Made by a program: the position numbers and the translations under genes. From positions 62,001 to 126,000 of the forward strand of contig JAUXWO010000055.1 of NCBI GenBank assembly GCA_030680175.1: a stretch of 64,000 bases of DNA, in the 5' to 3' direction. The stretch comes from Vicinamibacterales bacterium (lineage in GTDB: Bacteria; Acidobacteriota; Vicinamibacteria; Vicinamibacterales; UBA2999). The notes under the pieces were generated by a model. That model had not been told where the DNA came from and searched no databases. It worked only from the letters and a program-made list of their open reading frames with translations. The first letter of the stretch is position 1. Each line of letters begins with the position of its first letter. Of the stretch, positions 4,345 to 18,922 are shown in pieces.

Positions 4345-4566
4345 ATGAGCCAATTCTTCCCCGTGCCCCGCGGCGACCGCTGGTACCTGGCCCTGCTGGT
4401 GGCCATCGCGGTGGTCGCGTTCCTGCCCTGGTCGCGGAACACGGCGGCCGGCAGCCTCCCGGTGTTCGGGTGGCTGATGGTGGCGCTGATGGTGCTCGCG
4501 CCGGCCGTGGCGCTGGTGCGCCTGCTGCTGGCCGGCCCCGGCCCCTCCGACGAGGAACGGCGATGA
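4345..4566 (+). CDS. Small membrane subunit preceding a solute symporter
   Basis: A 73-residue protein with two hydrophobic segments (YLALLVAIAVVAFLPW and VFGWLMVALMVLAPAVALV). It overlaps the following symporter gene by ATGA at 4563-4566, so the two are probably translated together. Small two-helix proteins (for example the DUF3311 type) are commonly encoded just before sodium:solute symporters. Assignment to a named family is inference from position and topology. TAGACT, a -10-like hexamer, lies at 4330-4335, only nine bases before the ATG, with no obvious Shine-Dalgarno sequence. Confidence 0.7.
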   Translation: MSQFFPVPRGDRWYLALLVAIAVVAFLPWSRNTAAGSLPVFGWLMVALMVLAPAVALVRLLLAGPGPSDEERR

Positions 4567-5990
4567 CGATTGAACGCATCGTCGGGCTGATCTACCTCCT
4601 CGTGTGCATCGGCGTCGGCCTGCTGGCGTCGCGGAAGGTCGCGGCGTCGCGGGACGAGTACTGGGTGGCGGGCCGGCGCATCGGCACCACCGTCAACAGC
4701 CTGGCGATCATGGCGGCGCTCGCGAGCGGCGGCTCGATCATCGGGGTGATGGGGCTCACCTACGCGCAGGGCATTCCGGCGGCGCTGGCGCTCTTCACCG
4801 GCGCGGTGATCGGCTTCCCGCTGGCGTCGATCCTCGTGGCCGGACCGCTCCGCCGCTTCGGCAAGTTCACGATCACCGACTTCCTCCGCTACCGCTATCC
4901 GCACGCCATCGTGGCCTGGGTGGTGCCGGTGCTGATCGTCGTCAGCTTCACGGTGTACATCGTGGCGCAGATGAAGGCGGCGGGCATCACGGCCGCGGTG
5001 TTGCTCGGCATCGACTACGAGACGGCGCTGACGCTGGCGACGCTGGTCTTCATCCTGTATGTGTCGATCGGCGGGATGCTGGCGGTGACCTGGACGGACG
5101 TGTTCCAGGGCGGGCTGATGCTGATTGTCGTGACCGGCGCGGCGGCCGCGCTCGTGTGGCAGGCCGGGTCCCCGGGCCACCTCCTGACGGCCGCGACGGC
5201 GGCCGCGCCCGAGCTCGGTACCCTGCGCGATCAGCCGCTCGGCAGCTACCTCGGGTCCTTTGTCATCTGGGCGACGGCGATTCCCGTGATCCCGCACATC
5301 GTGATGCGGGTCTTCACGGCGAAGGACGCACGCGGCGCCCGGATGGCGCTCAACATCGCGATGATCCTCTACGCTTTGATGATCCTCGCGGCGGTGTTCG
5401 CGGTGGCGCCGGTGGGCAAGATGCGCTTCCCGGATCTCGCGGATGCGGACATGGTCTTCCTGCGCGTGATGGAGGCCGACTTCCCGCCGTTCTTCCGGGG
5501 GCTGGCGGTGGCGGCGGTGATGGCGGCGGTGATGTCGACGACGGATGCGCTGCTGCTGGCGTGCAGTTCGGCAATCGCGCACGACCTGCTCGGGCAGACG
5601 CTGAAGCGGAAGGTCAGCGCGAGCGCGGCGCACTGGGTGGCGGTCGGATCGGCGTGGGTGGTGGGGCTGACGGCGATGGGCCTGGCGTACTCGCCGCCGG
5701 CGCTCATCTCGCAGTTCTACACCGCGGCGATCGGGTTGCTGACGGCCGGCCTGTTCGTGCCGACAATCGCCGGCCTCTGGTGGCGGCGTGCCAACCTCGC
5801 CGGCGGCATCGCCGCCATCCTGGTCGGCGCGAGTGTGTATCTGACGGTGCAGTTCACCCCGGGCACCCCGCCGCTCTCGGCGATTCTCTTCGCGCTCCCG
5901 GCGAGCACCCTGGCGATGTGGCTTGGGGGCACGTTCGGCGCGCAGGAGCGTCCGGAGATGATCGCGGAGATCGCCCGCCTTCACGACTGA
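4563..5990 (+). CDS. Sodium:solute symporter family (SSS) transporter
   Basis: A 475-residue integral membrane protein with about 13 predicted helices. SSS-family hallmarks are visible: YWVAGRRIG after the first helix, ALASGGSIIGVMGLTYAQG in the second, GKFTITDFLRYRY, and VMAAVMSTTDALLLACSSAIAHDL in the sodium-site helix. The family imports small organic solutes such as proline, acetate or pantothenate with sodium. The substrate cannot be read from sequence. The start overlaps the stop of the small membrane protein upstream, indicating a two-gene unit. The final residues form a short cytoplasmic tail. It is followed by the convergent AI-2E permease. Confidence 0.9.
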   Translation: MTIERIVGLIYLLVCIGVGLLASRKVAASRDEYWVAGRRIGTTVNSLAIMAALASGGSIIGVMGLTYAQGIPAALALFTGAVIGFPLASILVAGPLRRFGKFTITDFLRYRYPHAIVAWVVPVLIVVSFTVYIVAQMKAAGITAAVLLGIDYETALTLATLVFILYVSIGGMLAVTWTDVFQGGLMLIVVTGAAAALVWQAGSPGHLLTAATAAAPELGTLRDQPLGSYLGSFVIWATAIPVIPHIVMRVFTAKDARGARMALNIAMILYALMILAAVFAVAPVGKMRFPDLADADMVFLRVMEADFPPFFRGLAVAAVMAAVMSTTDALLLACSSAIAHDLLGQTLKRKVSASAAHWVAVGSAWVVGLTAMGLAYSPPALISQFYTAAIGLLTAGLFVPTIAGLWWRRANLAGGIAAILVGASVYLTVQFTPGTPPLSAILFALPASTLAMWLGGTFGAQERPEMIAEIARLHD

Positions 5991-6044
5991 GGGGACTGGC
6001 GCGGTCACGTCGCGTTTCCCGGCCCGTGTCGCTGATGACCGGGG

Positions 6045-7208
6045 TCACTCGCCGAGCAGTTCGCCGACGGCTTCGAGGTGGTCGACCCGGTCGGCAATCA
6101 CTTTCAGGGTGATCAGCAGGGGCACCGCGAGGACCATCCCCCAGAACCCCCAGAGCCAGCCCCAGAACAGCAGGCCGACGAACATCGCGACCGTGTTCAT
6201 CCGGGCCGCCCGGCTCATCAGCATCGGCGTCAGGAGCATGCCCTCCAGGCCCGTGATGACGAGCGACGCGCCGCCGGTGGCGGCAGCCATGCCGACGGCG
6301 TCGAAGTGCACGTACGCCACGACCGCGGCGCTCGTCCAGACGGCCGTCGGGCCGAGGTAGGGCACGAGGTTGGCCACCGCCGCGAGCACGCCCCAGAGGG
6401 CCGCGTTCGGCATGCCAAGCGCCGCGAACGCCAGCCACGTCGCCACCCCGACGATCGTGCACACGAGCGCTACCGTCCGCAGGTACCGCGAGATGGTCTC
6501 CCCGATCTCGTCGATGATCTGTACCGTGATCTTGCGCTCGGAGAGCGAGGGTCCCGTCAGCCTCACCATCTTGAGTTTGAACAGGTCGCCCGAGGTGAGG
6601 ATGAAGAAGACAAGAAAGCAGACGAGCGCGACCTGGACGGCGCTGCCCGCGAGGCCCAGAGAGCCTGTCAGCAGGTAGTCGCTCACGCGCGAGGAGGGCG
6701 TGACGATGCGCACGGCCGTTCCCGTCTGTGGCCCTCGGGACCCGGTGCCCTCCTTCGAGAGTTCGTCGGCCGCCTGCTGCAGTTGCGCCATCGCGCCGGA
6801 CTCGGTCGAGGTCGTCTGCGCGATGAGGTTGTTGACCTTCCTGGCGGCTGCCGGCAGTTCCTCGATGAGCGCCGCGGCCTGGCCGGAGACGCGATACCCG
6901 ACGCCCGCAACGGTGACGATCAGCGCGAGCAGCAGCACCGCCGCCCCCGCAGCGCGCGGCACGCGCCATCGTTCGAGGCGGGTGACGGCCGGCGCCAGCA
7001 CGAACGAAAGGCCCACGCCGAACAGAATCGGCACGAACAGGCTGCGGCCCACGTAGAGCACCCAGATCGCGGCCACCGTCGTGATGAACGTGAGGGCGAG
7101 GCTCTGGATGCTCACCGACGCCTGGTCGACAGTCCCGTCGCCTTGCGCGCCCGCTTTCACGATCGGTCGATCCGGCGGCGGCCGCACGTCTTCAGTTCCG
7201 TGCGTCAT
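6045..7208 (-). CDS. AI-2E family transporter-like permease
   Basis: A 387-residue membrane protein with the AI-2E exporter/TqsA-PerM layout: two N-terminal helices (FGVGLSFVLAPAVTRLERW), a long soluble loop near residues 95-175, then five or so helices with PYLGPTAVWTSAA, EGMLLTPMLMSRAARMN and FWGWLWGFWGMVLAVPLL. Members have been linked to autoinducer-2 export or ion transport, so the substrate is uncertain. The ATG at 7208 is chosen because GAGGG lies about ten bases upstream; an upstream start at 7250 would add a cysteine-rich stretch unlike the family. It is transcribed divergently from the Oar-like receptor. Confidence 0.88.
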   Translation of the reverse strand: MTHGTEDVRPPPDRPIVKAGAQGDGTVDQASVSIQSLALTFITTVAAIWVLYVGRSLFVPILFGVGLSFVLAPAVTRLERWRVPRAAGAAVLLLALIVTVAGVGYRVSGQAAALIEELPAAARKVNNLIAQTTSTESGAMAQLQQAADELSKEGTGSRGPQTGTAVRIVTPSSRVSDYLLTGSLGLAGSAVQVALVCFLVFFILTSGDLFKLKMVRLTGPSLSERKITVQIIDEIGETISRYLRTVALVCTIVGVATWLAFAALGMPNAALWGVLAAVANLVPYLGPTAVWTSAAVVAYVHFDAVGMAAATGGASLVITGLEGMLLTPMLMSRAARMNTVAMFVGLLFWGWLWGFWGMVLAVPLLITLKVIADRVDHLEAVGELLGE

Positions 7209-7405
7209 GCCACTGCATCCCTCGTCACACCTGGGACAACAGTGCTCCACGCCGTGTCCCGCGCGCTGTGCGCTTCAGCACGCGGCAACGCACCGCGCGT
7301 GTGCGCCTGACGACAGACGCTCGTCGCAGCGGGCGCGCTGGTCGTCCGTGCGGCCTGAACTGATGAGCCGGGCCTCTTGCCCGGCTCACCCCTCGAAGGC
7401 CGGGA

Positions 7406-7446
7406 TATACTCCCAGGTTGACTGTCTTGGTCCCGACGCTGGGACC
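7406..7446 (+). promoter_or_regulatory. Putative -10 box and inverted repeat before the receptor gene
   Basis: TATACT at 7406-7411 stands out as a -10-like hexamer. Downstream, GGTCCC (7429-7434) and GGGACC (7441-7446) form a perfect inverted repeat with a six-base loop. It ends six bases before the GGAGG ribosome-binding site at 7452-7456. In RNA this would be a small hairpin next to the ribosome-binding site; in DNA it could be an operator. No -35 box is obvious. Confidence 0.35.
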
Positions 7447-7461
7447 GATCTGGAGGTTTGG

Positions 7462-10383
7462 ATGGCGTTTGCTCGACTTCTTCGGCCGTTGCTCGCGGTG
7501 TGCCTCGTGCTGGCGCCGCTCGTCGCGTCGGCCCAACAGACCGGCGCGCTCAGCGGGCGCGTGACGGACACCGACGGTCTGGCGCTGCCCGGCGTCACCG
7601 TCGAAGCTCGGGCTGACGTGCTGCCGGTGCCCCGTGTGGCGATCACCGGGGGGAACGGCGACTACCGGCTGCCGGCGCTCCCGCCCGGCACCTACACCAT
7701 CACCTTCGCCCTGGCCGGGATGCAGACGGTGACGCGCGAGGCGCGCGTCCAGCTGGCGCAGACGACCGTGGCGGATGCGACGCTGGGCGTGGCGGGCCTC
7801 ACCGAGGTCGTGACGGTGACCGCGGGAGCTTCGCTGATTGACCGCGGCTCCTCCGCCATCTCGAGCTCCGTGTCGGCGGATCAGATCCTGGCGCTGCCCG
7901 TCGGGCAGGAGTACCGCGACCTGGTCAAGCTGATTCCCGGTGTGCAGTACACCGAGGAGCAGGTGCGCGGCCCGAGCGCGGGCGGCAGCGGCCAGGACAA
8001 CGTGTACCAGTTCGACGGCGTGAACGTCACGCTGCCGCTCTTCGGGACGCTGTCGGCCGAGCCGGCCTCCCACGACATCGACCAGGTCACGACGATCAAG
8101 GGCGGCGCGCAGGCGATCAACTTCGATCGATCGGGCGGTTTCACGATCGACTCGGTGAGCAAGTCGGGCACCAGCCGCTACCAGGGGATGCTGAGCTACC
8201 AGCTCCAGAACAACGCGATGGCGGCCGAGCTCGAGAGCGGGTCGCGCTCGCGGTACGAGCAGGATCGTACGTGGCTCACCGGCAACGTCGGCGGCCCGAT
8301 CCTCCAGAACCGCCTCTTCTTCTACGGCTCGTATTACCGTCCCACGCGGACGCGCGACAACCAGGCGAACCTGTACGGCGAGCTCCCGGCCTACGAGAGC
8401 ACGCGCAATGAAGGCTTCGGCAAGCTGACGTTCACGCCGTCGAGCGCGGTGCTGCTCAATGCCAGCTACCGCGATTCGAAGCGCGAGGACATCAGCGACC
8501 TGTTCGCGGCCAACGCCTCGGCCACCACCGGATCGGGCAGCGAGTTGCGCCTCCGCATCGCCACCGTGGATGGCTCGTGGGTCATCAACGACCGCAGCTT
8601 CCTGACCTTCAAGTACACGAACTTCGCCAACCGCACCCAGGGCCGGCCCGACAGCATCGCGAGCGTCACGCCGAGCACGCAGGCGGGCACGCGGCTCGAT
8701 GTCACCAGCCTCGACAGCCAGGGCCGCCTGACGGTCCCGACGCCGGTGGCCGGCGCCACGGCGTACAACGCGTTCATCCAGCCGCTCATCGACCGCTACG
8801 GTTCCGTGCAGAACGGCCAGCGCATCGGCGGTGGCATCGTCGGCTTCGGGGCGGAGTTCAACGACCAGGACTTCTTCCGGAACGCCGGGCAGGTGGCCTA
8901 CAACATCACGTTCGGCGGCAACGTCTCGCATGACGTGCACGTCGGCTACCAGCTCTATCAGGACGCCGAGGACCTGGTGCGCAGCTCGAACGGCTGGGGG
9001 CTCATCAGCGTGCCCGGCGGCCGGCTGGCGCCGATCGCCGGCACCGGCCAGTCGGCGTTCTACACGGCACGGTTCCAGCAGCAGTCGATCGGCGTGGCGC
9101 CGAAGATCCGCTCGGAGTACCTGTCGCAGAGCATCGAGGTGAACGACACGATCCGGTGGCAGAACTGGGCGTTCAACCTCGGCGTGCTCGTGAGCAACGA
9201 CACGCTCTACGGGCAGGGGCTGCGCGAAGACGCCTCGACGCTCTCCGGCTACGTGTCGGCGCCCGGCAACAAGTACAACATGTACGAGCTGCCGTTCAGC
9301 AAGATGATCCAGCCGCGCGTGGGTGCGACGTGGGCCTACAACGGCAACGACACCGTGTATGCCAGCTACGCCCGCTACCACCCGGCGGCCAGCTCGCTGC
9401 CCCGCGCGGCGTCGTGGGACCGCAACCTGATCGGCACGTTCATCGACGCGCACTTCGACCAGACGGGCACGCTGTTCGCCGCGGTGCCGGTCGGCTCCTC
9501 GTCGGGCAAGCTCTTCGTCGAAGACATGACGCCGCGCACGGTGGACGAGTTCCTCGTGGGCACGGCGCGCCAGATCAACCCGCAGTGGTCGATGCGGTTC
9601 TACGGCCGCTACCGTGAGGGCAGCCACTTCTGGGAAGACACGAACAACAACGCGCGCGTCGCGTTCAATCCGCCCGCGAACATCCCGCGCGAGCTCTACA
9701 TCACGGATCTGAGCCAGCGTCTGGCGCAGATCGGCAGCGGCTCGAGCTACGTCATCGCGGAGCTCGACGGCGCCTACACGAAGTTCTACGAGGCGACGGT
9801 CGAGAGCGAGTGGCGCGGCAGCCGCGCGTTCGTCCGCGGCTCCTACACCTGGAGCCGCTACACGGGCAACTTCGACCAGGACAACACGACGACGGGCAAC
9901 GATGCCAACGTGTTCATGGGATCGTCGTTCATCGCCGACGCGGCCGGCCGGCAGCTCTGGGACTTCCGCGATGGCACGCTGCGCGGCGACCGCCCGCACA
10001 TGCTGAAGGTCTACGGCTTCTACAACCTGGGCTGGAACGCCAGCGTCGGCGCCTTCGCCGTGGCGCAGTCGGGCCAGCCGTGGGAGGAGTGGAGCTTCGA
10101 GCCGTATCGCAGCCTGACGACGAGCACGAGCAGCACGTCACGGTTCGCCGAGCCGGCCGGGTCGCGCCGGAGCGATGCGCACTGGCAGCTCGATCTGAAC
10201 TACACGCAGAACGTGCGGCTGGCCGGCCGCTCGAGCCTCCAGATCGCCCTCGACCTGTTCAACGTCATGAACAACCAGACCGGCTACGACATCCAGCCGG
10301 TGCGGGAGAGTTCGGTGTTCGGACAGCCCCGCGCCTACTTCGACCCAAGGCGCATCCAGATCGCCGCCCGGCTCCTCTTCTAG
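7462..10383 (+). CDS. Oar-like TonB-dependent receptor with carboxypeptidase-regulatory-like domain
   Basis: A 973-residue outer-membrane protein. The signal peptide (LLAVCLVLAPLVASA) is followed by a carboxypeptidase-regulatory-like beta sandwich (GALSGRVTDTDGLALPGVTV to about residue 105). The plug is at roughly 120-240 (ISSSVSADQILALPVG, YQFDGVNVT, GGAQAINFD). A 22-strand barrel with typical periodic aromatic strands follows and ends in the C-terminal phenylalanine signature AARLLF. GGAGG at 7452-7456 fixes the start. Oar-like receptors take up large substrates or move proteins in a TonB-dependent way; the ligand is unknown. The gene ends one base before the left arm of a hairpin element. 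Confidence 0.92.
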   Translation: MAFARLLRPLLAVCLVLAPLVASAQQTGALSGRVTDTDGLALPGVTVEARADVLPVPRVAITGGNGDYRLPALPPGTYTITFALAGMQTVTREARVQLAQTTVADATLGVAGLTEVVTVTAGASLIDRGSSAISSSVSADQILALPVGQEYRDLVKLIPGVQYTEEQVRGPSAGGSGQDNVYQFDGVNVTLPLFGTLSAEPASHDIDQVTTIKGGAQAINFDRSGGFTIDSVSKSGTSRYQGMLSYQLQNNAMAAELESGSRSRYEQDRTWLTGNVGGPILQNRLFFYGSYYRPTRTRDNQANLYGELPAYESTRNEGFGKLTFTPSSAVLLNASYRDSKREDISDLFAANASATTGSGSELRLRIATVDGSWVINDRSFLTFKYTNFANRTQGRPDSIASVTPSTQAGTRLDVTSLDSQGRLTVPTPVAGATAYNAFIQPLIDRYGSVQNGQRIGGGIVGFGAEFNDQDFFRNAGQVAYNITFGGNVSHDVHVGYQLYQDAEDLVRSSNGWGLISVPGGRLAPIAGTGQSAFYTARFQQQSIGVAPKIRSEYLSQSIEVNDTIRWQNWAFNLGVLVSNDTLYGQGLREDASTLSGYVSAPGNKYNMYELPFSKMIQPRVGATWAYNGNDTVYASYARYHPAASSLPRAASWDRNLIGTFIDAHFDQTGTLFAAVPVGSSSGKLFVEDMTPRTVDEFLVGTARQINPQWSMRFYGRYREGSHFWEDTNNNARVAFNPPANIPRELYITDLSQRLAQIGSGSSYVIAELDGAYTKFYEATVESEWRGSRAFVRGSYTWSRYTGNFDQDNTTTGNDANVFMGSSFIADAAGRQLWDFRDGTLRGDRPHMLKVYGFYNLGWNASVGAFAVAQSGQPWEEWSFEPYRSLTTSTSSTSRFAEPAGSRRSDAHWQLDLNYTQNVRLAGRSSLQIALDLFNVMNNQTGYDIQPVRESSVFGQPRAYFDPRRIQIAARLLF

Positions 10384-10384
10384 G

Positions 10385-10501
10385 AGGGGTCTGGCACCGT
10401 GACATCGAAATCGGTGCAGTTCCGGCACTCCCGCCTGTTGAAGGACTGCGGAGGGGAGTGCAGAAAGTGCACCGATTTCGATGTCACGGTGCCAGACCCC
10501 T
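10385..10501. mobile_element. MITE/REP-like element with 34-base perfect inverted arms
   Basis: Arms at 10385-10418 and 10468-10501 are perfect reverse complements beginning AGGGGTCTGGCACC and ending CGGTGCA. The 49-base centre is itself nearly palindromic (GCACTCCC against GGGAGTGC), so the whole 117 bases can fold into one long hairpin. There is no room for a transposase, so it would be non-autonomous. It lies between the stop of the receptor gene and the 3' end of the sulfatase gene, and its right arm supplies the last five codons and stop of the latter. GGTCTGGCACC-type ends are reminiscent of REP elements mobilised by RAYT/Y1 transposases; that link is inference. Confidence 0.75.
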
Positions 10502-12529
10502 GAAGAGCGCCTCCCTGGCAATCAGCTCCCGCGTCGTTTCGTCTGCCCGTTCCCGGGCACGTGCGATGCGGGCGGCGGCGTCCGGTTCCTTCAGCAGCAC
10601 GCTCACCTGCGCCCGCTTGAAGAGCGCCATGGCGATCTCCGGATGCGCGTCCGGCACCCGGTCGAGTGCCTCGCGCGCCTCGGGGAAGCGCCGCACGTCC
10701 ATGTAGAGCACGCCGAGTTCCAGATCGTGCGCGAAGCCGGCGGGCTGCCGCCGGCGCGCGGCCTCGAATGATTCCAGCGCGAGCGGCGTCCGCCCCTCGT
10801 GCATCGCCATCTGACCGAGCTGCACGAGCTCCGCCGGGGACGGCGTCCTCATGCCGTAGACACGCTGGCGCAGGTCGACCGCGTCCCCGATGCGCCCCTC
10901 GCGCTCCCGCACGACGGCCAGCGCCTCGACGGCCGGCAGGCGGTCCGGCGTGTCGGCCACGATCTGCTCGAGCAGCGGCACCGCGCGGCGCCACTCCGCC
11001 CCGCGCGCGTAGTGCAGCGCGAGGTACGTGCGGACATCCGCGGACAGCGGCGCGATCGTCGCTGCCCGCCGGAACATCTCCACGGCACGCGCGTCCTCGC
11101 CGAGCGACGAGAACGCGGTCGCCAGCCGCAGCGCCGCATCGAGGTTGTAGGCGTCCTCGGCGAGGATCTGCTCGAGGAGCGGAACGACCTCGCGATAGCG
11201 TTCGGCGACGAAGAGCCCCGACGCGCGCTCGATCACCTCGAACAGGTGCACCATGTCGGCCGGCCTCGGCGCGTCGCGGCGCACGGGCGGTGCCACGCTG
11301 GAACTCACGTAGCCAAGGCTCGCGAGGTTGCGCCGGGCCTCGTCGCTCAGGCCTTCCGGGCCGCGCGCCGCCTCCGGCGACGGCACCGGGTAGTCGTCGA
11401 GCGCCTGCCGCAGCGCGGCCGGCACGCCCGCGCCCGGGAACAGGTCGCGCGTCTCACCGGGATCCGCGGCCAGGTCGTACACCTCGATCGGCCCTGCGAG
11501 GATCGCCTTGCGCGTGCCGTCCACCGCCATGATCTGCGGCTGCCAGCCGTACGACAGAAACGGCTTCATCGCCTCGCCCAGCACGATCTCCCGCGGCTCC
11601 CCGCGCAGGCTGCCCTCGGCGTCGAGGCCCGCCCAGTCGCGGATGGTGTGGAAGATGCGGCGGATGCTCGCCGGCGTCTCGCTCACGCCGGGCGCGATCC
11701 CCGGCCCCGCCATCACCATCGGCACCTGCATCGTTGGCTGGTAGAGGAGGCTCCCGTGCTGCCGTTCGCCGTGATCGCCGAGTCCCTCGCCGTGGTCGCC
11801 GGAGACGATGATGGCGATGGGGCCGGGGGCCTGGCGGTCGAACGCCTCGATCAGGCGGCCGAGTTGCTCGTCCATGGCCGCGACCTCGCCGAGGTAGGGA
11901 TTCTCCGGGAAGCGGCTCAGGTACGGCTCCGGCGGTGCGTAGGGCGTGTGCGGGTCGAAGTAATGAACCCAGAGGAAGACGGGGGCGTCCGACGGCTGCG
12001 CGAGGAAGGCGAGCGCGCGATCGGTCGTCTCTCTCGCGCTGCGCTCCACGCGCCCCTCGTCGAGCGCATCGTCGTACGCGTCGAACCCGCGCGCGAGGCC
12101 GAACCGGCGCGAGAGCACGAACGACGACACGAACGCCGCGGTGCGGTAGCCGGACTCCCGCAACTGCTCGGCGACGACGGGGTGATCGGGGGAGAGGTAG
12201 CGTGCGTTTTCGTGGATGCCGTGTCCGCCGGGATAGAGCCCCGTCATCATCGAGGCATGCGACGGGAGCGTCTCCGGGGTGGTGGCGTAGGCGTGGCGGA
12301 AGCGGCGGCCGCGTGCGGCCAGCGCATTGAAGGCCGGGGTCTCGATGCCAACGGCGTCGGGGCCGATGGCATCGGCGCGCGTGGTGTCGAGCGTGACGAG
12401 GAGGATGGAGGGGCGTGCGGCTCCGGTCGTGGCCGCGCCGGGCTGCGGACCGTCGCTCCGGCCGCACCCGGCGATGAGGACAAGCGCAGCGAACGTCAGG
12501 AGGCCCAGGGATGAAGGGACACGGCGCAT
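10484..12529 (-). CDS. Sulfatase-family (alkaline phosphatase fold) lipoprotein with TPR tail
   Basis: A 681-residue protein. The lipobox LIAGC places a lipid-modified Cys at 22. Residues 40-400 form a sulfatase-type domain: metal-binding TLDTTRADA at 46-54, the nucleophile region ETLPSHASMMTG at 86-97, HYFDPHTPY, and the metal motif SGDHGEGLGDHG. At the nucleophile position the sequence is T-L-P-S-H, with Thr87 in place of the usual Cys or Ser of C/S-x-P-x-R, so classical formylglycine sulfatase chemistry is unlikely. Residues 450-681 are TPR-like helical repeats. The last five codons come from the adjacent hairpin element. The start at 12529 gives the lipoprotein signal. Confidence 0.85.
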   Translation of the reverse strand: MRRVPSSLGLLTFAALVLIAGCGRSDGPQPGAATTGAARPSILLVTLDTTRADAIGPDAVGIETPAFNALAARGRRFRHAYATTPETLPSHASMMTGLYPGGHGIHENARYLSPDHPVVAEQLRESGYRTAAFVSSFVLSRRFGLARGFDAYDDALDEGRVERSARETTDRALAFLAQPSDAPVFLWVHYFDPHTPYAPPEPYLSRFPENPYLGEVAAMDEQLGRLIEAFDRQAPGPIAIIVSGDHGEGLGDHGERQHGSLLYQPTMQVPMVMAGPGIAPGVSETPASIRRIFHTIRDWAGLDAEGSLRGEPREIVLGEAMKPFLSYGWQPQIMAVDGTRKAILAGPIEVYDLAADPGETRDLFPGAGVPAALRQALDDYPVPSPEAARGPEGLSDEARRNLASLGYVSSSVAPPVRRDAPRPADMVHLFEVIERASGLFVAERYREVVPLLEQILAEDAYNLDAALRLATAFSSLGEDARAVEMFRRAATIAPLSADVRTYLALHYARGAEWRRAVPLLEQIVADTPDRLPAVEALAVVREREGRIGDAVDLRQRVYGMRTPSPAELVQLGQMAMHEGRTPLALESFEAARRRQPAGFAHDLELGVLYMDVRRFPEAREALDRVPDAHPEIAMALFKRAQVSVLLKEPDAAARIARARERADETTRELIAREALFRGLAP

Positions 12530-13110: not shown

Positions 13111-14043
13111 TCAGATCCCGCCGCCGTCGTCGCCGTAGTACGCCTGGAAACAGAGGTCCATGAACGGGGGGAACACCGCCCCGGCGCCCGCCTCCAAGGA
13201 CACGAACGCCGGAACCCCGCACGGAAGACCCGTTGCCGGCGTGTTCCTTCCGGTCGCCGATTCGCACTCGGCGATCACCGGATCCGCGCCCACGAGGAAC
13301 TGCGAGAGCAGCTCGCCATGCTCGAGGCGCTTCGGGTCGCCCTGGTCGATGCGCGGGCCCGCGGAGCTGATAAACCACAGCTCCGCCGCGTCGTCCGCGG
13401 CCGGGGTGAAGGACCGCACGGTGCGCCCCGCGCTCAGGCGGAGCGAGGCGGCGCCGGCCTCGAAGTTGACGGCATCGGTCAGCGGCTGCTTGTGCGCGCC
13501 GAACGACCAGATCCTCCCCGCATCGGGATGCGCGGACGAGTTCACCAGCCGCCCGCCCGAGAGCGATGCCGTGGCGTGCGACCAGCGCCCCAGGTCGCTG
13601 CGCAGGCGCTTGCCCGGGGCGATGAGGTGCATCTGCGCGAGGTGGTCGGCGCGGTTGTCGACGGTCGCTCGGCCGTCATGCGCCACGACGTCAATCGACA
13701 TGTGCTCGAGGCACAGGAACACGAAGTCGTCCGGGCCGGATCCGGTGACCTGCTGGTCGAACGCCTCGGCGACGACGCCGGGGGCGGGCTGCATGCCGAG
13801 GGCGGCCGCGATGGCGCTCCCGGTGCGCGCCATGGCGAACGGCACGTGCGCGAAGTGCTGCATGGCGTGGTGGCCGGGGGTGACGGCGAGCAGCGTGCCG
13901 TCGGTGCGCTTGACGAAGCCCATCATGCCGACGAAGCGCACGGTGAGCCCGCCCTGTCGCGCCGAGGCGTGCGGGACGGCGGTGGCGGCGAGTGCGGCGG
14001 CCACGCCGGTGGAAACGGAGCGGAGAAAGCGTCTGCGGTTCAC
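13111..14043 (-). CDS. Tat-exported protein of unknown function, coupled to the CHAT gene
   Basis: A 310-residue protein with a classical twin-arginine signal: MNRRRFLRSVSTGVAAALAA, cleaved after about residue 28 (SASA-like PHASA). This predicts export in a folded state. The mature part has recurring GxVxF strands (LTVRFVGMMGFVKR, DDFVFLCLEHMSIDVV) and several histidines but no family I recognise. The ATG at 14043-14041 overlaps the stop of the upstream CHAT gene (14042-14040), so the two are translationally coupled. It is therefore a candidate partner or substrate of that protease; this is inference from position only. Confidence 0.75.
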   Translation of the reverse strand: MNRRRFLRSVSTGVAAALAATAVPHASARQGGLTVRFVGMMGFVKRTDGTLLAVTPGHHAMQHFAHVPFAMARTGSAIAAALGMQPAPGVVAEAFDQQVTGSGPDDFVFLCLEHMSIDVVAHDGRATVDNRADHLAQMHLIAPGKRLRSDLGRWSHATASLSGGRLVNSSAHPDAGRIWSFGAHKQPLTDAVNFEAGAASLRLSAGRTVRSFTPAADDAAELWFISSAGPRIDQGDPKRLEHGELLSQFLVGADPVIAECESATGRNTPATGLPCGVPAFVSLEAGAGAVFPPFMDLCFQAYYGDDGGGI

Positions 14044-17000
14044 GGGAGACTCCCACGGTGCGGGTCGTTAGGGGTGGTGTGACTTGCCCCGAACACGGCG
14101 AGCCGGGCCCACGGGCCAGGCTGCCGGCCGGTCCGCTGGAGGGCCTGGACCTGCACCTGCTGCAGGCTCTCCGCAGCTGATGCACCGCGCGCGTACGCGC
14201 GGTGAAACTCGACGAACATCTGCCGCGCCAGGGTGTCGTCCAGGGGGCCGAGTGCGCTCACCACCGTGGGGGCGCCCGCCGCCAGAAACGCGCGCGCCAG
14301 GCTGAGCGCGCCTTCGCCGCGAGCCGAGGGGCCGCCGCCGCTGTCGCAGGAGGCCAGCACGACGAGGCCGGTGCGCGAGAAGTCCCGTGCCGCGACCTCG
14401 CGTGCGAACACCGCGCCGGAGTACGGCCGTCCCGGCGCGTCGGCGAGCATCAGCCGCGAGAGCATCGGGTACTCGGCGTTGGTCATCCCGTGGGCCGCTA
14501 CGTGCACGACGTCGCGCCCTGGGCCATCGTCAAGCAGGCGATCAGGAGTGGCTGTGACACCCGCGCGGAGTTCTGCCGATCCGTAAATCGCCGCGATGGC
14601 GGCCGCTTCGTCGCGGGAGCCTGGAAGGGGCGCAAGGCGGGCGCCGGTGGACGTCGATGGCGCGCCGATGATGAGTGCCGAAGGCCGCCCACCCGGTCGC
14701 GCGACCGCTCGCTCGGTGGCGCGCACGAAGACGGTGGCGCTCGGCGCGACCGTCAGAGCCATATCCTCGATGAGGTAGCGACCTCGCCGCCGATCATGCA
14801 GACCTGCAAACGCCAGCGAGCTGTAAGGGCCGTCCGGAACGATCACGAGGAGTCGCGCGCCACGAAGACTCGCGAGGTGTGGACGAATGAGCGCATCGAA
14901 TAGCTCACCGCTGGCGTGTGTGCCACCCGTGCCTGTGGTGATGCCGTTGCTGTATGCCGCTGCCAACGAGACGGCCCTATCGCGCAACACAGGCACGGTG
15001 GCCGCCGAAATAGACCCACGGTGAACCAGCCACGAAACAAGCTCGTCCTGGAACTGATTCAAGATCAGTACAGCTGTGCCCTCCGGAATCGCGGCTGCGA
15101 GGCCTGGGAGAGACACCTCTTCAGCCCCGCTCCATTGGTGTGCCTCGACAACCGTGCGTGCCCGGCCTCGCTCTCCGTAGTTGAAGGCTGCGTTCCTGTC
15201 CCCCCGTGCCAACGCGAGCTGAATTGCCTGCTCGAACAGCGCCCAGGACCGGTCCGAGTACGAGATACGACCCTCGCTAGACATGGAAGCTCGCTCGTCA
15301 TCGAAAGCCGCAATGCCCGCCGAGATGTGGCGCTCGGCCTCGTTCAACATGCCTTGAGCGAGGAACGCGGTTGCCAACGTCACAGAGAGCTGGGCAACAC
15401 CGAGCCGGTCCCGCCGTTCGTCGAGTCGTTGCCGTGCCTCGGTTGCAGCGGCAATTGCTCTAGGAGGGTCGGCTGTTCCGAACAGCTCGGCCTCTGCAGC
15501 CAGAACAGATGTCTCCACACGGCGCCTCATCACTGGATCGCTCAGCGTCGCCAATCGCTCAGTAGCGAGCCTTAGGTCCTGACTTGCTGCTCCGCGCTGA
15601 CCGACTGCGTGGTGGATCCGAGCTCGCTGCGCAAGGGCCTCGACCTCAACAGCGGCCCCCAACGAATGGCCCGTCTGCGAAGCGGCTGATTGAATAACGA
15701 GGGCAGCCTCTGGCAGGCCGTTTGTCAGCATGTCCCCGGCGGCGCTGAGTAGGATCCCGTGTCGGACCCTCGTGGCTTCTGCCCCAGAGAGGCTCGAAGC
15801 CGCCAGTGTTCGGTACTGCCACGCGTGCGGTTCGTCTCCGATGTAATAGAAGAGATTCGCGAGGAGAAGCGCGCCGCCGGCCATGCGCTCTGCATCGCCC
15901 ATCGCCGAGACGGTTTCGAGTGTCTGCTCGTAGAGAAACTGCGCGTCGCCCAGACGGCCCTGGGCGAACGCGGCCATCCCGCCCAGCCAGAGGACTTGCC
16001 CTAGTACGTCCCCGTAGCCCTGACGTCGCGCGGCGACTTCGATACCTGCCAGCGTCTGCTCGACGTCCTTGTAGTTGGCGCGGTAGTAGTCGGCCGACGC
16101 GAGATCGATGGCTGCGCGCAGCTCCAGGGGCACAGCTGCGGCGCGGAGGCCCTTCCTGGCGTCGAGCAGGCTTGTGGGCGACCGCCCTGGGCTCACCGAT
16201 GCCCCCGGTGAGACCGCAGCGTAGGCATCGATTGCGGCCGCCAACGCCTGCGCAGCCGCACCACCCGCCGCTTCCGCCCGGTCGATCGTGACGACGACGT
16301 CGCGGCCGAGTTGATCGCCGGTCAGCCGTGCGAAGGCGTCCGCGAGCATGCGTGCGGTGGCGAGCGGGGTTGTGGCGTCGCCGCGATTCAGCGTGGCCGT
16401 GGCCCAGGCGGGGAAGAGGTCGCGTTCGAGGAACTCGCGCGCGCGGCTCGTGTGCTGGCGCACCGCCGCATCCACATCGGCCTGGCTCGGTGACGCCTGC
16501 AGGCGGGCGAGCACCTCCGGCCACGGGTCGCCGACCGGCATCAGCGCCTGGAGCCGGCCTTCGGCCTCGGCGCGCCACTCGGGGTTCGATTCGTGTGCGA
16601 GGTAGGCCTGCCACGCCTCGCGCGCGAGGTCGCGCGGGGCGATGGCCGCGATCGCCAGGGCGCGGTTGAACCACGCTTCCGCCCGCGACGGATCCGCCGC
16701 GATCGCGCGCTCGGCCGCCGACAGCGCGCGGGGGAGATCGTCGGGCCGGCCGCCAAGGCGCGCGCGCTCGTGGTACGCCGCGGCCAGATCCGCCAGGACC
16801 GCCGCGTCCTGGGGCGCGATGTCCGCCGCCGCCGTCAGCGCGCGGATCGCCTCGTGGTACTCGCCGACGAGCAGCGCCGCCACGCCGGTGGCGTGCTGGC
16901 TCGCCGCGCTCAGGTCCGCGTGGTGCGCCTCGCGGATCTCGCCGGCCGCCGCCACGAGCATCCACGGGCGGGCCACGGCTGTGTCGCCATCCACGGAGCG

Positions 17001-17435
17001 GACCGCGGGGCGCAGCGGTGCATAGGGGAAGGGCCCGGACAGCCGGGCCTCGACGGTGCGCTCGCGGCCAGAGGCCTCGGCGAGCCGCGCGCGGTGGCCC
17101 TCCGGCGCCTGCCGGCGCACCCAGCCGTCGGTGGCGACCAGCATCGCGAGCGCCACGACCAGAATCGACCCGGCCAGCCCCCCGCCCGTCCATGCCGCCC
17201 CGAGCACGTGGCGCAGGTTGTCCAGCCGCGACGGGCTCTCGCCCACCGCCACCAGCTCCGTCCGCATCGCCGGCACCGCGTCCTGGGTGCGGACGACGTC
17301 CGCGATCAGACGGCGGCAGCGGTCGCACTCGGCCAGATGGTGGACCACCGCCTCGCGGGCGGCCGGGTCCAGGCCGGCGTCGAGATACGCAGAGAGCAGC
17401 TCGGGGTCAGGACAGTGGGTGTCTGGGTCCATCAT
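14040..17435 (-). CDS. Zinc anti-sigma domain-TPR-CHAT caspase-like protease fusion
   Basis: A 1131-residue protein. Residues 8-45 carry a zinc anti-sigma motif, H-x3-C-x2-C in VVHHLAECDRCRRL. A single membrane helix (GSILVVALAMLVAT) lies near 85-105. Residues 160-750 are TPR-like helical repeats. The C-terminal 300 residues are a CHAT domain with the predicted catalytic pair: His in HVAAHG near 977 and Cys in LASCDSGG near 1028. CHAT proteases are caspase relatives found in signalling and defence. The sigma factor gene lies 102 bases upstream and the Tat protein overlaps the stop. The central part (about 14.9-15.8 kb) has visibly lower third-position GC than its surroundings, which may mean a separately acquired TPR block. 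Confidence 0.88.
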   Translation of the reverse strand: MMDPDTHCPDPELLSAYLDAGLDPAAREAVVHHLAECDRCRRLIADVVRTQDAVPAMRTELVAVGESPSRLDNLRHVLGAAWTGGGLAGSILVVALAMLVATDGWVRRQAPEGHRARLAEASGRERTVEARLSGPFPYAPLRPAVRSVDGDTAVARPWMLVAAAGEIREAHHADLSAASQHATGVAALLVGEYHEAIRALTAAADIAPQDAAVLADLAAAYHERARLGGRPDDLPRALSAAERAIAADPSRAEAWFNRALAIAAIAPRDLAREAWQAYLAHESNPEWRAEAEGRLQALMPVGDPWPEVLARLQASPSQADVDAAVRQHTSRAREFLERDLFPAWATATLNRGDATTPLATARMLADAFARLTGDQLGRDVVVTIDRAEAAGGAAAQALAAAIDAYAAVSPGASVSPGRSPTSLLDARKGLRAAAVPLELRAAIDLASADYYRANYKDVEQTLAGIEVAARRQGYGDVLGQVLWLGGMAAFAQGRLGDAQFLYEQTLETVSAMGDAERMAGGALLLANLFYYIGDEPHAWQYRTLAASSLSGAEATRVRHGILLSAAGDMLTNGLPEAALVIQSAASQTGHSLGAAVEVEALAQRARIHHAVGQRGAASQDLRLATERLATLSDPVMRRRVETSVLAAEAELFGTADPPRAIAAATEARQRLDERRDRLGVAQLSVTLATAFLAQGMLNEAERHISAGIAAFDDERASMSSEGRISYSDRSWALFEQAIQLALARGDRNAAFNYGERGRARTVVEAHQWSGAEEVSLPGLAAAIPEGTAVLILNQFQDELVSWLVHRGSISAATVPVLRDRAVSLAAAYSNGITTGTGGTHASGELFDALIRPHLASLRGARLLVIVPDGPYSSLAFAGLHDRRRGRYLIEDMALTVAPSATVFVRATERAVARPGGRPSALIIGAPSTSTGARLAPLPGSRDEAAAIAAIYGSAELRAGVTATPDRLLDDGPGRDVVHVAAHGMTNAEYPMLSRLMLADAPGRPYSGAVFAREVAARDFSRTGLVVLASCDSGGGPSARGEGALSLARAFLAAGAPTVVSALGPLDDTLARQMFVEFHRAYARGASAAESLQQVQVQALQRTGRQPGPWARLAVFGASHTTPNDPHRGSLP

Positions 17436-17537
17436 CTTGGCAGCGCGGCCGGCGGCGGCCGGTGAATGCGCATACCTAATTAGACGGACATGATCTCAAA
17501 TCATGACACGCGATCTCTGTAAGTTGTTGATGTGAAA
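17436..17537 (-). promoter_or_regulatory. AT-rich gap with inverted repeat between sigma factor and CHAT gene
   Basis: This 102-base gap is much more AT-rich than the surrounding genes. It contains CATGAT (17489-17494) and ATCATG (17500-17505), a perfect six-base inverted repeat with a five-base spacer, plus TAATTAG and AAATTAGTTAAC stretches. It is a good candidate for an internal, possibly autoregulated, promoter of the CHAT gene. No standard -35/-10 pair can be assigned with confidence. Confidence 0.4.
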
Positions 17538-18362
17538 TTAGTTAACGGCGCGCTGCTGTACACTTCGCCAGCGGCCGCGCTTGAGCAGCGTGTCCACCGT
17601 GGAGGTGGGATGCCCGAGCAGGCCGGCGATGTCTTCGGGCGTGATGCCTTCGGCGAGCATCGATGCGCGGACGGTCTCGGTGGCCTGACCGAGCCGTCGG
17701 TAGACCGGCCGCACGTCCAGGCCGATGGCCCTGGCCACCTGCGGGGGCGTGAGGTCGTCCATGTAGCGCATCGCCATCAGGACCCGGTCGTTCGCCGTGA
17801 GCTTGGCGAGGGCCCGCTTGAGGGCGGTCTCCACCCGGTCCACCCGTTCGAGGTGTTCAGCCAGCGCCAGCCCTTCGTCGGGCGCGCCGCCCTCGGCGTG
17901 GCTGGTGGCCAGGGCCGCCTCATCGACGCGGAGCCGGGGCGTGCGCACGGGCAGTTCGTGCAGCAGGTCCCGGAGGGCTTCGCGTGACAGCGGCACGCGG
18001 TGCGTGCCCTGCATCACCTCGACGGCCTCGGGAAACGACATCCCCTCGCGCGTGATGAGCTCCTCGAGCAGCACGGCCGTGGGCCCGAGCCGCTCCGCCG
18101 TGGCCGAGGGCCGCCAGCGGCCCCACAGCGAATCCCGGAAGTCGAACAGCAGGTGGGTGACGACCGTGACGAGGTAGGTCTTCGGATGCGACCGCCCCTC
18201 GAAGCCGCGGAGCGCCCGGTAATCGTCTTCGACCAGCCGCAGCTTCACCACGCTGGCGAAGTCCTCGCCCTCGTCGGCAGAAAGGTGATGGCGCCAGGCG
18301 ACGTACTGGACCACCTCGTCGACCAGCGGGAGCAGGTCGACCAAGCGCTGACTCAACGGCAC
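17538..18362 (-). CDS. ECF-like RNA polymerase sigma factor
   Basis: A 274-residue protein. Residues 1-95 match sigma region 2 (FEGRSHPKTYLVTVVTHLLFDFRDSLWGRW). Residues 170-245 match region 4 with a helix-turn-helix (LTPPQVARAIGLDVRPVYRRLGQA). It is longer than a minimal ECF factor, with an extended linker and an extra tail ending GHPTSTVDTLLKRGRWRSV that resembles another HTH. The start is a GTG at 18362; a GACAAT hexamer lies nine bases upstream and there is no clear Shine-Dalgarno site. The next gene on the strand encodes an H-x3-C-x2-C anti-sigma domain, so the pair forms a sigma/anti-sigma module. Confidence 0.85.
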   Translation of the reverse strand: MPLSQRLVDLLPLVDEVVQYVAWRHHLSADEGEDFASVVKLRLVEDDYRALRGFEGRSHPKTYLVTVVTHLLFDFRDSLWGRWRPSATAERLGPTAVLLEELITREGMSFPEAVEVMQGTHRVPLSREALRDLLHELPVRTPRLRVDEAALATSHAEGGAPDEGLALAEHLERVDRVETALKRALAKLTANDRVLMAMRYMDDLTPPQVARAIGLDVRPVYRRLGQATETVRASMLAEGITPEDIAGLLGHPTSTVDTLLKRGRWRSVQQRAVN

Positions 18363-18384: not shown

Positions 18385-18855
18385 TTACCTCTTCTTCCGC
18401 CCCAGTCGCACGACGATGTCGAATTCGGCCTTGGTGACGGGCTGCACCGACAGCCGGCTGCCCTTCTGGACGACCTTCATCTGCTCAAGGCCGGTGGTCG
18501 ACTTGAGCGTCTCGAGCGGCACGACGCCGGGAAACCGCTCCACGAACCCGATGTCGACCATGTACCAGACGGGCTTCTCGCGGGTGCTGGCCTTGTCGAA
18601 GTAGTGGTGGCCCTTCGTCCAGGCGGTGTGATCGGGGTAGCCGTCCTGAACGATTTCGGCCAGGCCGGTGACGCCGGAGGGGTCGGCATTCGACGCGTAG
18701 AACAGGACGCCGTCCCCCACCTGCATGTCATCGCGCATGAAGTTGCGCGCCTGGTAATTGCGCACCCCCTCCCAGCTCGTCGTCTTATCCCGCGCGAGAT
18801 CGTCGATCGTGTACGCGTCGGGCTCGCACTTCATCAACCAGAACTTCCTCGCCAT
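18385..18855 (-). CDS. EVE domain protein
   Basis: A 156-residue single-domain protein with EVE hallmarks: FWLMKCEPDAYTIDDL at the start, WEGVRNYQARNFMRDDMQVG and GVLFYASNADPSGVTGLAEI. EVE is a PUA-like fold related to YTH domains and is thought to read modified bases in nucleic acid. The start at 18855 is supported by GGGAGG five bases upstream. The stop is only 22 bases before the sigma factor start on the same strand, so they may be cotranscribed. A functional link to the sigma/CHAT module is not demonstrated. Confidence 0.9.
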   Translation of the reverse strand: MARKFWLMKCEPDAYTIDDLARDKTTSWEGVRNYQARNFMRDDMQVGDGVLFYASNADPSGVTGLAEIVQDGYPDHTAWTKGHHYFDKASTREKPVWYMVDIGFVERFPGVVPLETLKSTTGLEQMKVVQKGSRLSVQPVTKAEFDIVVRLGRKKR

Positions 18856-18922
18856 GAACCTCCCAGGCTCGCAAGCAGCGATCGGCTTTCGGCTATCAGC
18901 GATCAGCAATCTTCCGATCTAT

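Follow-up and report, generated by a model that had tools for sequence, protein, structure and literature searches.

The closest described counterpart of the locus analysed here is DdvA, the cognate anti-sigma factor of the ECF sigma factor DdvS in Myxococcus xanthus; the signal inactivating DdvA is stated to be unknown (PMC4374960). According to a further report, DdvS/DdvA controls a CBASS and CRISPR-Cas island in the same species (PMC12288465). ECF sigma factors with CHAT neighbours also make up the ECF54 group, for which CHAT, subtilase and carboxypeptidase proteins are listed as neighbours (PMC8999054). Finally, in the Craspase system (Cas7-11/Csx29/Csx30/CASP-sigma), the CHAT protease is a separate protein on Cas7-11 which, once activated by target RNA, cuts the sigma inhibitor Csx30 (PMC10028731).

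In the window (i.e. the whole stretch of 64,000 nucleotides that was analysed), three genes of the minus strand encode, in this order, a sigma factor, a protein combining a zinc anti-sigma (ZAS) domain, a transmembrane helix (TM), TPRs and a CHAT domain, and a protein with a Tat signal. The first gene (17538..18362, minus strand, GTG start) specifies an ECF-type sigma factor of 274 aa with a short C-terminal HTH-like extension, recognised by Pfam (Sigma70_r4_2, E 1.4e-12; sigma4 region at about 17682-17825, minus strand) and by the NCBIfam sigma70-ECF model above its cut-off. Used as a query against PDB sequences, it gave no match. In nearly all related modules, the gene immediately preceding the ZAS/CHAT genes encodes a homologue of this sigma factor. 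The same succession of three genes is also found in other genomes, amid different flanking genes, so that the order is not due to chance. The overlap of four bases (GTGA) between the CHAT and Tat genes, already described in the original prediction, was confirmed. An EVE-domain gene (window 18385-18909, minus strand) ends about 20 bases before the sigma gene and the two may therefore be co-transcribed. The sigma factor has a second close relative (41 % identity; L064 and L065, G000:C64:4824-5543), which had no CHAT neighbour in the stretch read. At another locus (L127, 3333-7652), two tandem sigma genes are followed by a ZAS-TM-TPR protein, with an NMT1-like solute-binding protein in place of CHAT.

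The second gene (14040..17435, minus strand, ATG start) encodes a protein of 1131 aa, in which Pfam detected zf-HC2 (E 1.9e-7), TPRs and CHAT (E 2e-50). All its features likewise read on the minus strand. The ZAS domain (17313..17414) contains the motif H33-x3-C37-x2-C40, and C8, H33, C37 and C40 are invariant across six homologues, in agreement with an anti-sigma domain as first proposed; its best PDB match, the DdvA ZAS (8rlz), is weak (E 0.11). It is followed by a single transmembrane helix according to hydropathy (residues about 77-104, 17124..17207), a TPR superhelix supported by Pfam and by the structural model (residues about 174-741, 15213..16916) and the CHAT domain (residues 842-1116, 14088..14912). 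The His/Cys dyad of active CHAT proteases is present, as far as can be read from the sequence, as His982 (codon 14490..14492) and Cys1030 (codon 14346..14348). The domain composition that had been announced for this protein and its sigma factor thus stands.

In the homologues, basic residues cluster on the N side of the membrane helix and, following the positive-inside rule, the ZAS domain is predicted to be cytoplasmic and the TPR-CHAT part periplasmic. With this topology CHAT would occupy the same compartment as the Tat-exported protein, and the direct cleavage of the sigma factor by CHAT that had been suggested becomes implausible, the two lying on opposite sides of the membrane. What holds of the proposed signalling circuit is a sigma/zinc-anti-sigma pair equipped with a TPR-CHAT sensor, together with a conserved downstream partner that is predicted to share the compartment of this sensor. 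The receptor is not always a single chain: at five loci (L052, L053, L061, L062 and L138) it is split into two adjacent genes, i.e. ZAS-TM-TPR and TM-TPR-CHAT. The window genome itself has a second CHAT gene pair (L058, G000:C68:113000-132000, positions 6402-11016), in the order TM-TPR, TM-TPR-CHAT and a signal-less partner protein, and no related sigma gene lies beside it.

Structural and sequence comparisons both led to DdvA. With the full-length AlphaFold model of the CHAT protein, whose pLDDT is modest in the ZAS and CHAT parts, the top Foldseek matches were two DdvA entries (E 4e-16 and 7e-16), and DdvA was also the best structural match with VIA (Z 22.5 over 701 residues, model residues 175-1116). 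A profile built from six homologues matched the DdvA chain 8rot_B (E 3e-9), and the CHAT region alone matched DdvA (E 1.2e-7) with the His and Cys residues aligned. Given the N-terminal zinc domain, the helix after it, TPR and CHAT regions with the DdvA fold and an adjacent ECF sigma gene, we class the CHAT protein as a transmembrane anti-sigma factor of the DdvA type, whose ZAS domain presumably binds and inhibits the sigma factor. As DdvA matches by fold and by sequence, the fusion of ZAS to CHAT is an architecture already known and is not new in kind.

The third gene (13111..14043, minus strand, GTG start) encodes the partner, a protein of 310 aa from an unnamed family. Its predicted Tat signal peptide (NRRRFLRS...ASA, residues 1-28, 13960..14043, minus strand) has an RR pair that is invariant in alignment A1. 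Pfam has no entry for this family, and the window protein had no sequence match in the PDB. The core of its AlphaFold model (residues about 31-228), predicted with partial confidence, found no counterpart of its fold in the PDB, the best Foldseek hit having E 0.018 at probability 0.06 and VIA giving no Z of 2 or more. Orthologues occur in 9 of 149 related genomes, that of the window included, all nine genomes belonging to one taxonomic family. On every contig that is long enough to tell, the orthologue immediately follows the CHAT gene. At the same place, more distant modules mostly have a protein that shares an N-terminal motif (x-V-x-F-x-G-M) and a G-x-L...W-x-F...Q-x-x-T-D pattern; profile-profile comparison of the Tat protein with these distant partners gave a probability of 87 % (E 4e-6). 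The joint profile found members in 16 of 193 genomes of the class, which we take to be Vicinamibacteria. A partner-family gene thus accompanies nearly all the related modules inspected, as does the sigma gene, and the association on which the original prediction relied is conserved in related genomes.

Tat signals were found on the partners of L047, L052 and the clade with Tat-protein orthologues (hereafter Tat clade), whereas those of seven deep modules (L055, L056, L058, L061, L138, L140 and L141) are devoid of a signal peptide; Tat export was thus gained within the family, in one subclade. When about 390 genomes of the phylum were searched for signal-less partners with a weak profile of five rows, only the window genome and one genome of the same family were recovered. 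Immediately after the signal-less partner gene of L055 lies a subtilase gene (4399-5235), also without signal peptide, which recalls ECF54 neighbourhoods.

The CHAT catalytic residues have largely been lost in the Tat clade. In all 8 of the other readable modules with a Tat-protein orthologue (L043, L044, L045, L046, L049, L054, L059 and the L057 fragment), residues of several kinds have taken the place of both His and Cys. Counted with the window, the dyad is lost in 8 of 9 CHATs of this clade and kept in 14 of the 14 other CHATs of the loci, and the window protein is, among readable modules, the only Tat-clade CHAT in which it is intact. The dyad-less domains evolve under purifying selection, with dN/dS of 0.19 (L044/L049) and 0.32 (L043/L046), and so does the partner. 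The best tree groups the window protein with that of L059 and requires the dyad to have been lost twice; a tree in which the window protein is basal and the dyad was lost only once was not rejected by the topology test (AU p 0.07).

Cleavage of the Tat protein, as first put forward, is therefore not supported as the conserved function of the module, and we read CHAT as mainly a sensing or binding domain, proteolysis being dispensable in this clade. In the window genome, where the dyad is intact, CHAT may still cut, and for this one genome cleavage of the Tat protein is a possibility. One competing explanation is that the window CHAT acts in the periplasm as a protease on the Tat protein, cleavage altering receptor or partner and thereby controlling the sigma factor. 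Intact His982 and Cys1030, the shared predicted compartment, the translational coupling of the two genes and the precedent of Csx29-Csx30-CASP-sigma, in which a CHAT protease acts in a sigma circuit (PMC10028731), would agree with it; yet CHAT and partner are kept by selection in modules that have lost the dyad, and the deep partners bear no signal peptide. We regard this explanation as unlikely.

Slightly less probable still is the explanation by which CHAT would cut its own anti-sigma protein, in a site-1-like autoproteolysis that releases the sigma factor. Regulated proteolysis is the established means of sigma release for other membrane anti-sigma factors, RseA and RsiW, and the dyad is intact in the window and in the deep members. 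This scheme cannot, however, hold for related modules of this kind that have lost the dyad, and the solved structures of DdvA (8rot, 8rw5) contain a long chain. Tentatively, and with odds that we place clearly below even, the caspase-like CHAT sensor of a membrane anti-sigma receptor may have turned from a protease into a pseudoprotease receptor for a dedicated, sigma-controlled, Tat-exported protein. The window would then hold the sole known intact member and, with its relatives, form a natural before/after pair.

Upstream of the anti-sigma gene, we identified a candidate ECF promoter, TGTCA-N16-CCGTCTA (17481..17508, minus strand), which reads into the anti-sigma/Tat operon. Its -10 element, CCGTCTA, keeps its position in all modules of the Tat clade in which the region is intact; most of these have TGAGA 16-17 bases before it, where the window has TGTCA instead. 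The pattern TGAGA-N16/17-CCGTCTA is strongly enriched in genomes with the module: of the 149 genomes searched, 7 module-bearing relatives (about 36 Mb) had 31 sites and the remaining 142 had 17, and in genus g2, to which most of the modules belong, three module-less genomes had zero sites. This co-occurrence makes the CCGTCTA-type promoter a candidate target of the sigma factor. In the window genome, a search with a loose pattern gave 5 matches versus 17 for the reversed control, so that all matches except the operon's own site were treated as chance.

In the relatives, the genes that follow further sites include a response regulator or histidine kinase gene divergent from and beside the sigma gene, as well as genes for hybrid histidine kinases, for surface proteins and for a phosphoesterase, a lipase-like protein and an AraC-type regulator; several sites are not followed by any clear gene. 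Neither death nor defence genes were recognised in this candidate regulon of the relatives. These data bear on the suicide circuit that had been envisaged, or more broadly on an anti-phage role comparable to that of CHAT defence effectors. CHAT effectors are known to act in defence, and in M. xanthus a CBASS and CRISPR-Cas island is reported to be under DdvS/DdvA control (PMC12288465). Against this, the candidate regulon consists mostly of signalling and surface genes, no defence gene adjoining the module was recognised, and PADLOC recognised neither the anti-sigma factor nor the Tat protein as a member of any of its families, its one match being a weak CARF hit to the sigma factor (E 0.0085). 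A defence or suicide function is, to our mind, the least probable of the explanations considered.

A more serious competitor is that the partner is only a downstream output, i.e. an effector of the sigma regulon that takes no part in sensing. The conserved sigma-type promoter before the operon fits such a role. So does genome G040 (L057, G040:C101, 5589-8064), in which the sigma and anti-sigma genes have collapsed by deletion and frameshift and the Tat partner gene is intact, so that the partner may also act independently of the receptor; this case argues, too, against the partner being a toxin that the receptor restrains. At L139 (G024:C6:178000-187442, positions 5020-8592), a solo partner that carries a Sec-like signal and has no CHAT nearby is encoded next to a MacB/FtsX-like permease gene, which points in the same direction. 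On the other hand, the partner gene has stayed by the CHAT gene through large divergence, in several flanking contexts and even as the compartment changed, a constancy that mere membership of the regulon would not require. We therefore hold the output-only role to be a real, if minority, possibility.

Taken together, these results favour an autoregulated sigma/anti-sigma receptor of the DdvA type, a reading to which we give a probability of roughly 70 %. In this receptor, the cytoplasmic ZAS domain would hold the ECF sigma factor, a single helix would cross the membrane, and the periplasmic TPR-CHAT part would form the sensing and docking half. A periplasmic event at TPR-CHAT would free the sigma factor, which would then transcribe mainly its own anti-sigma/partner operon from the CCGTCTA-type promoter and, in the relatives, also a few genes for two-component and surface proteins. 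Itself a product of sigma activity, the exported partner would return to the compartment of the receptor and dock on TPR-CHAT as a ligand or feedback modulator. The contact between partner and TPR-CHAT is speculative, and docking as a universal model is weakened by the deep modules, in which the signal-less partners would lie on the opposite side from the periplasmic CHAT. The G040 case likewise counts against docking, and the modest pLDDT of the ZAS and CHAT parts and the TGTCA of the window promoter count against the reading as a whole.

The conserved and predicted co-transcribed partner would provide a concrete candidate ligand or modulator for DdvA-type receptors. Moreover, the loss of catalytic residues across a whole branch implies that protease activity is not a requirement for CHAT in these receptors, and the promoter motif makes both regulon and circuit directly testable by reporter.

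When compared with known systems, DdvA (PDB 8rot, 8rw5, 8rlz) has, like the window protein, ZAS, one membrane helix, TPR and CHAT in one chain and is paired with an ECF sigma factor. The two share about 19 % identity and match in sequence and fold for most of their length; the DdvA CHAT has His and Cys at the aligned positions, whereas the dyad is missing from the proteins most closely related to that of the window. ECF54 resembles the locus by its ECF sigma factor with CHAT neighbours but is described as lacking an anti-sigma factor, and its model is actinobacterial (PMC8999054); the CHAT protein next to the window sigma factor carries a ZAS domain, and the locus does not fit ECF54. Craspase shares with it a TPR-CHAT protein in an ECF sigma circuit (PMC10028731). 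In the window module, however, CHAT is fused to the anti-sigma factor across the membrane and there is no CRISPR effector; membership of type III-E CRISPR was rejected, as no Cas7-11 gene was found among the immediate neighbours scanned and the CHAT protein has a ZAS domain and a helix. EACC2/caspase systems with ECF sigma neighbours (PMC8195603) differ in domain make-up, and the term anti-sigma is absent from the text of that paper. The DdvA-type sigma/anti-sigma receptor is thus known, and what is new is the undescribed partner family, the pseudoprotease branch and the conserved promoter.
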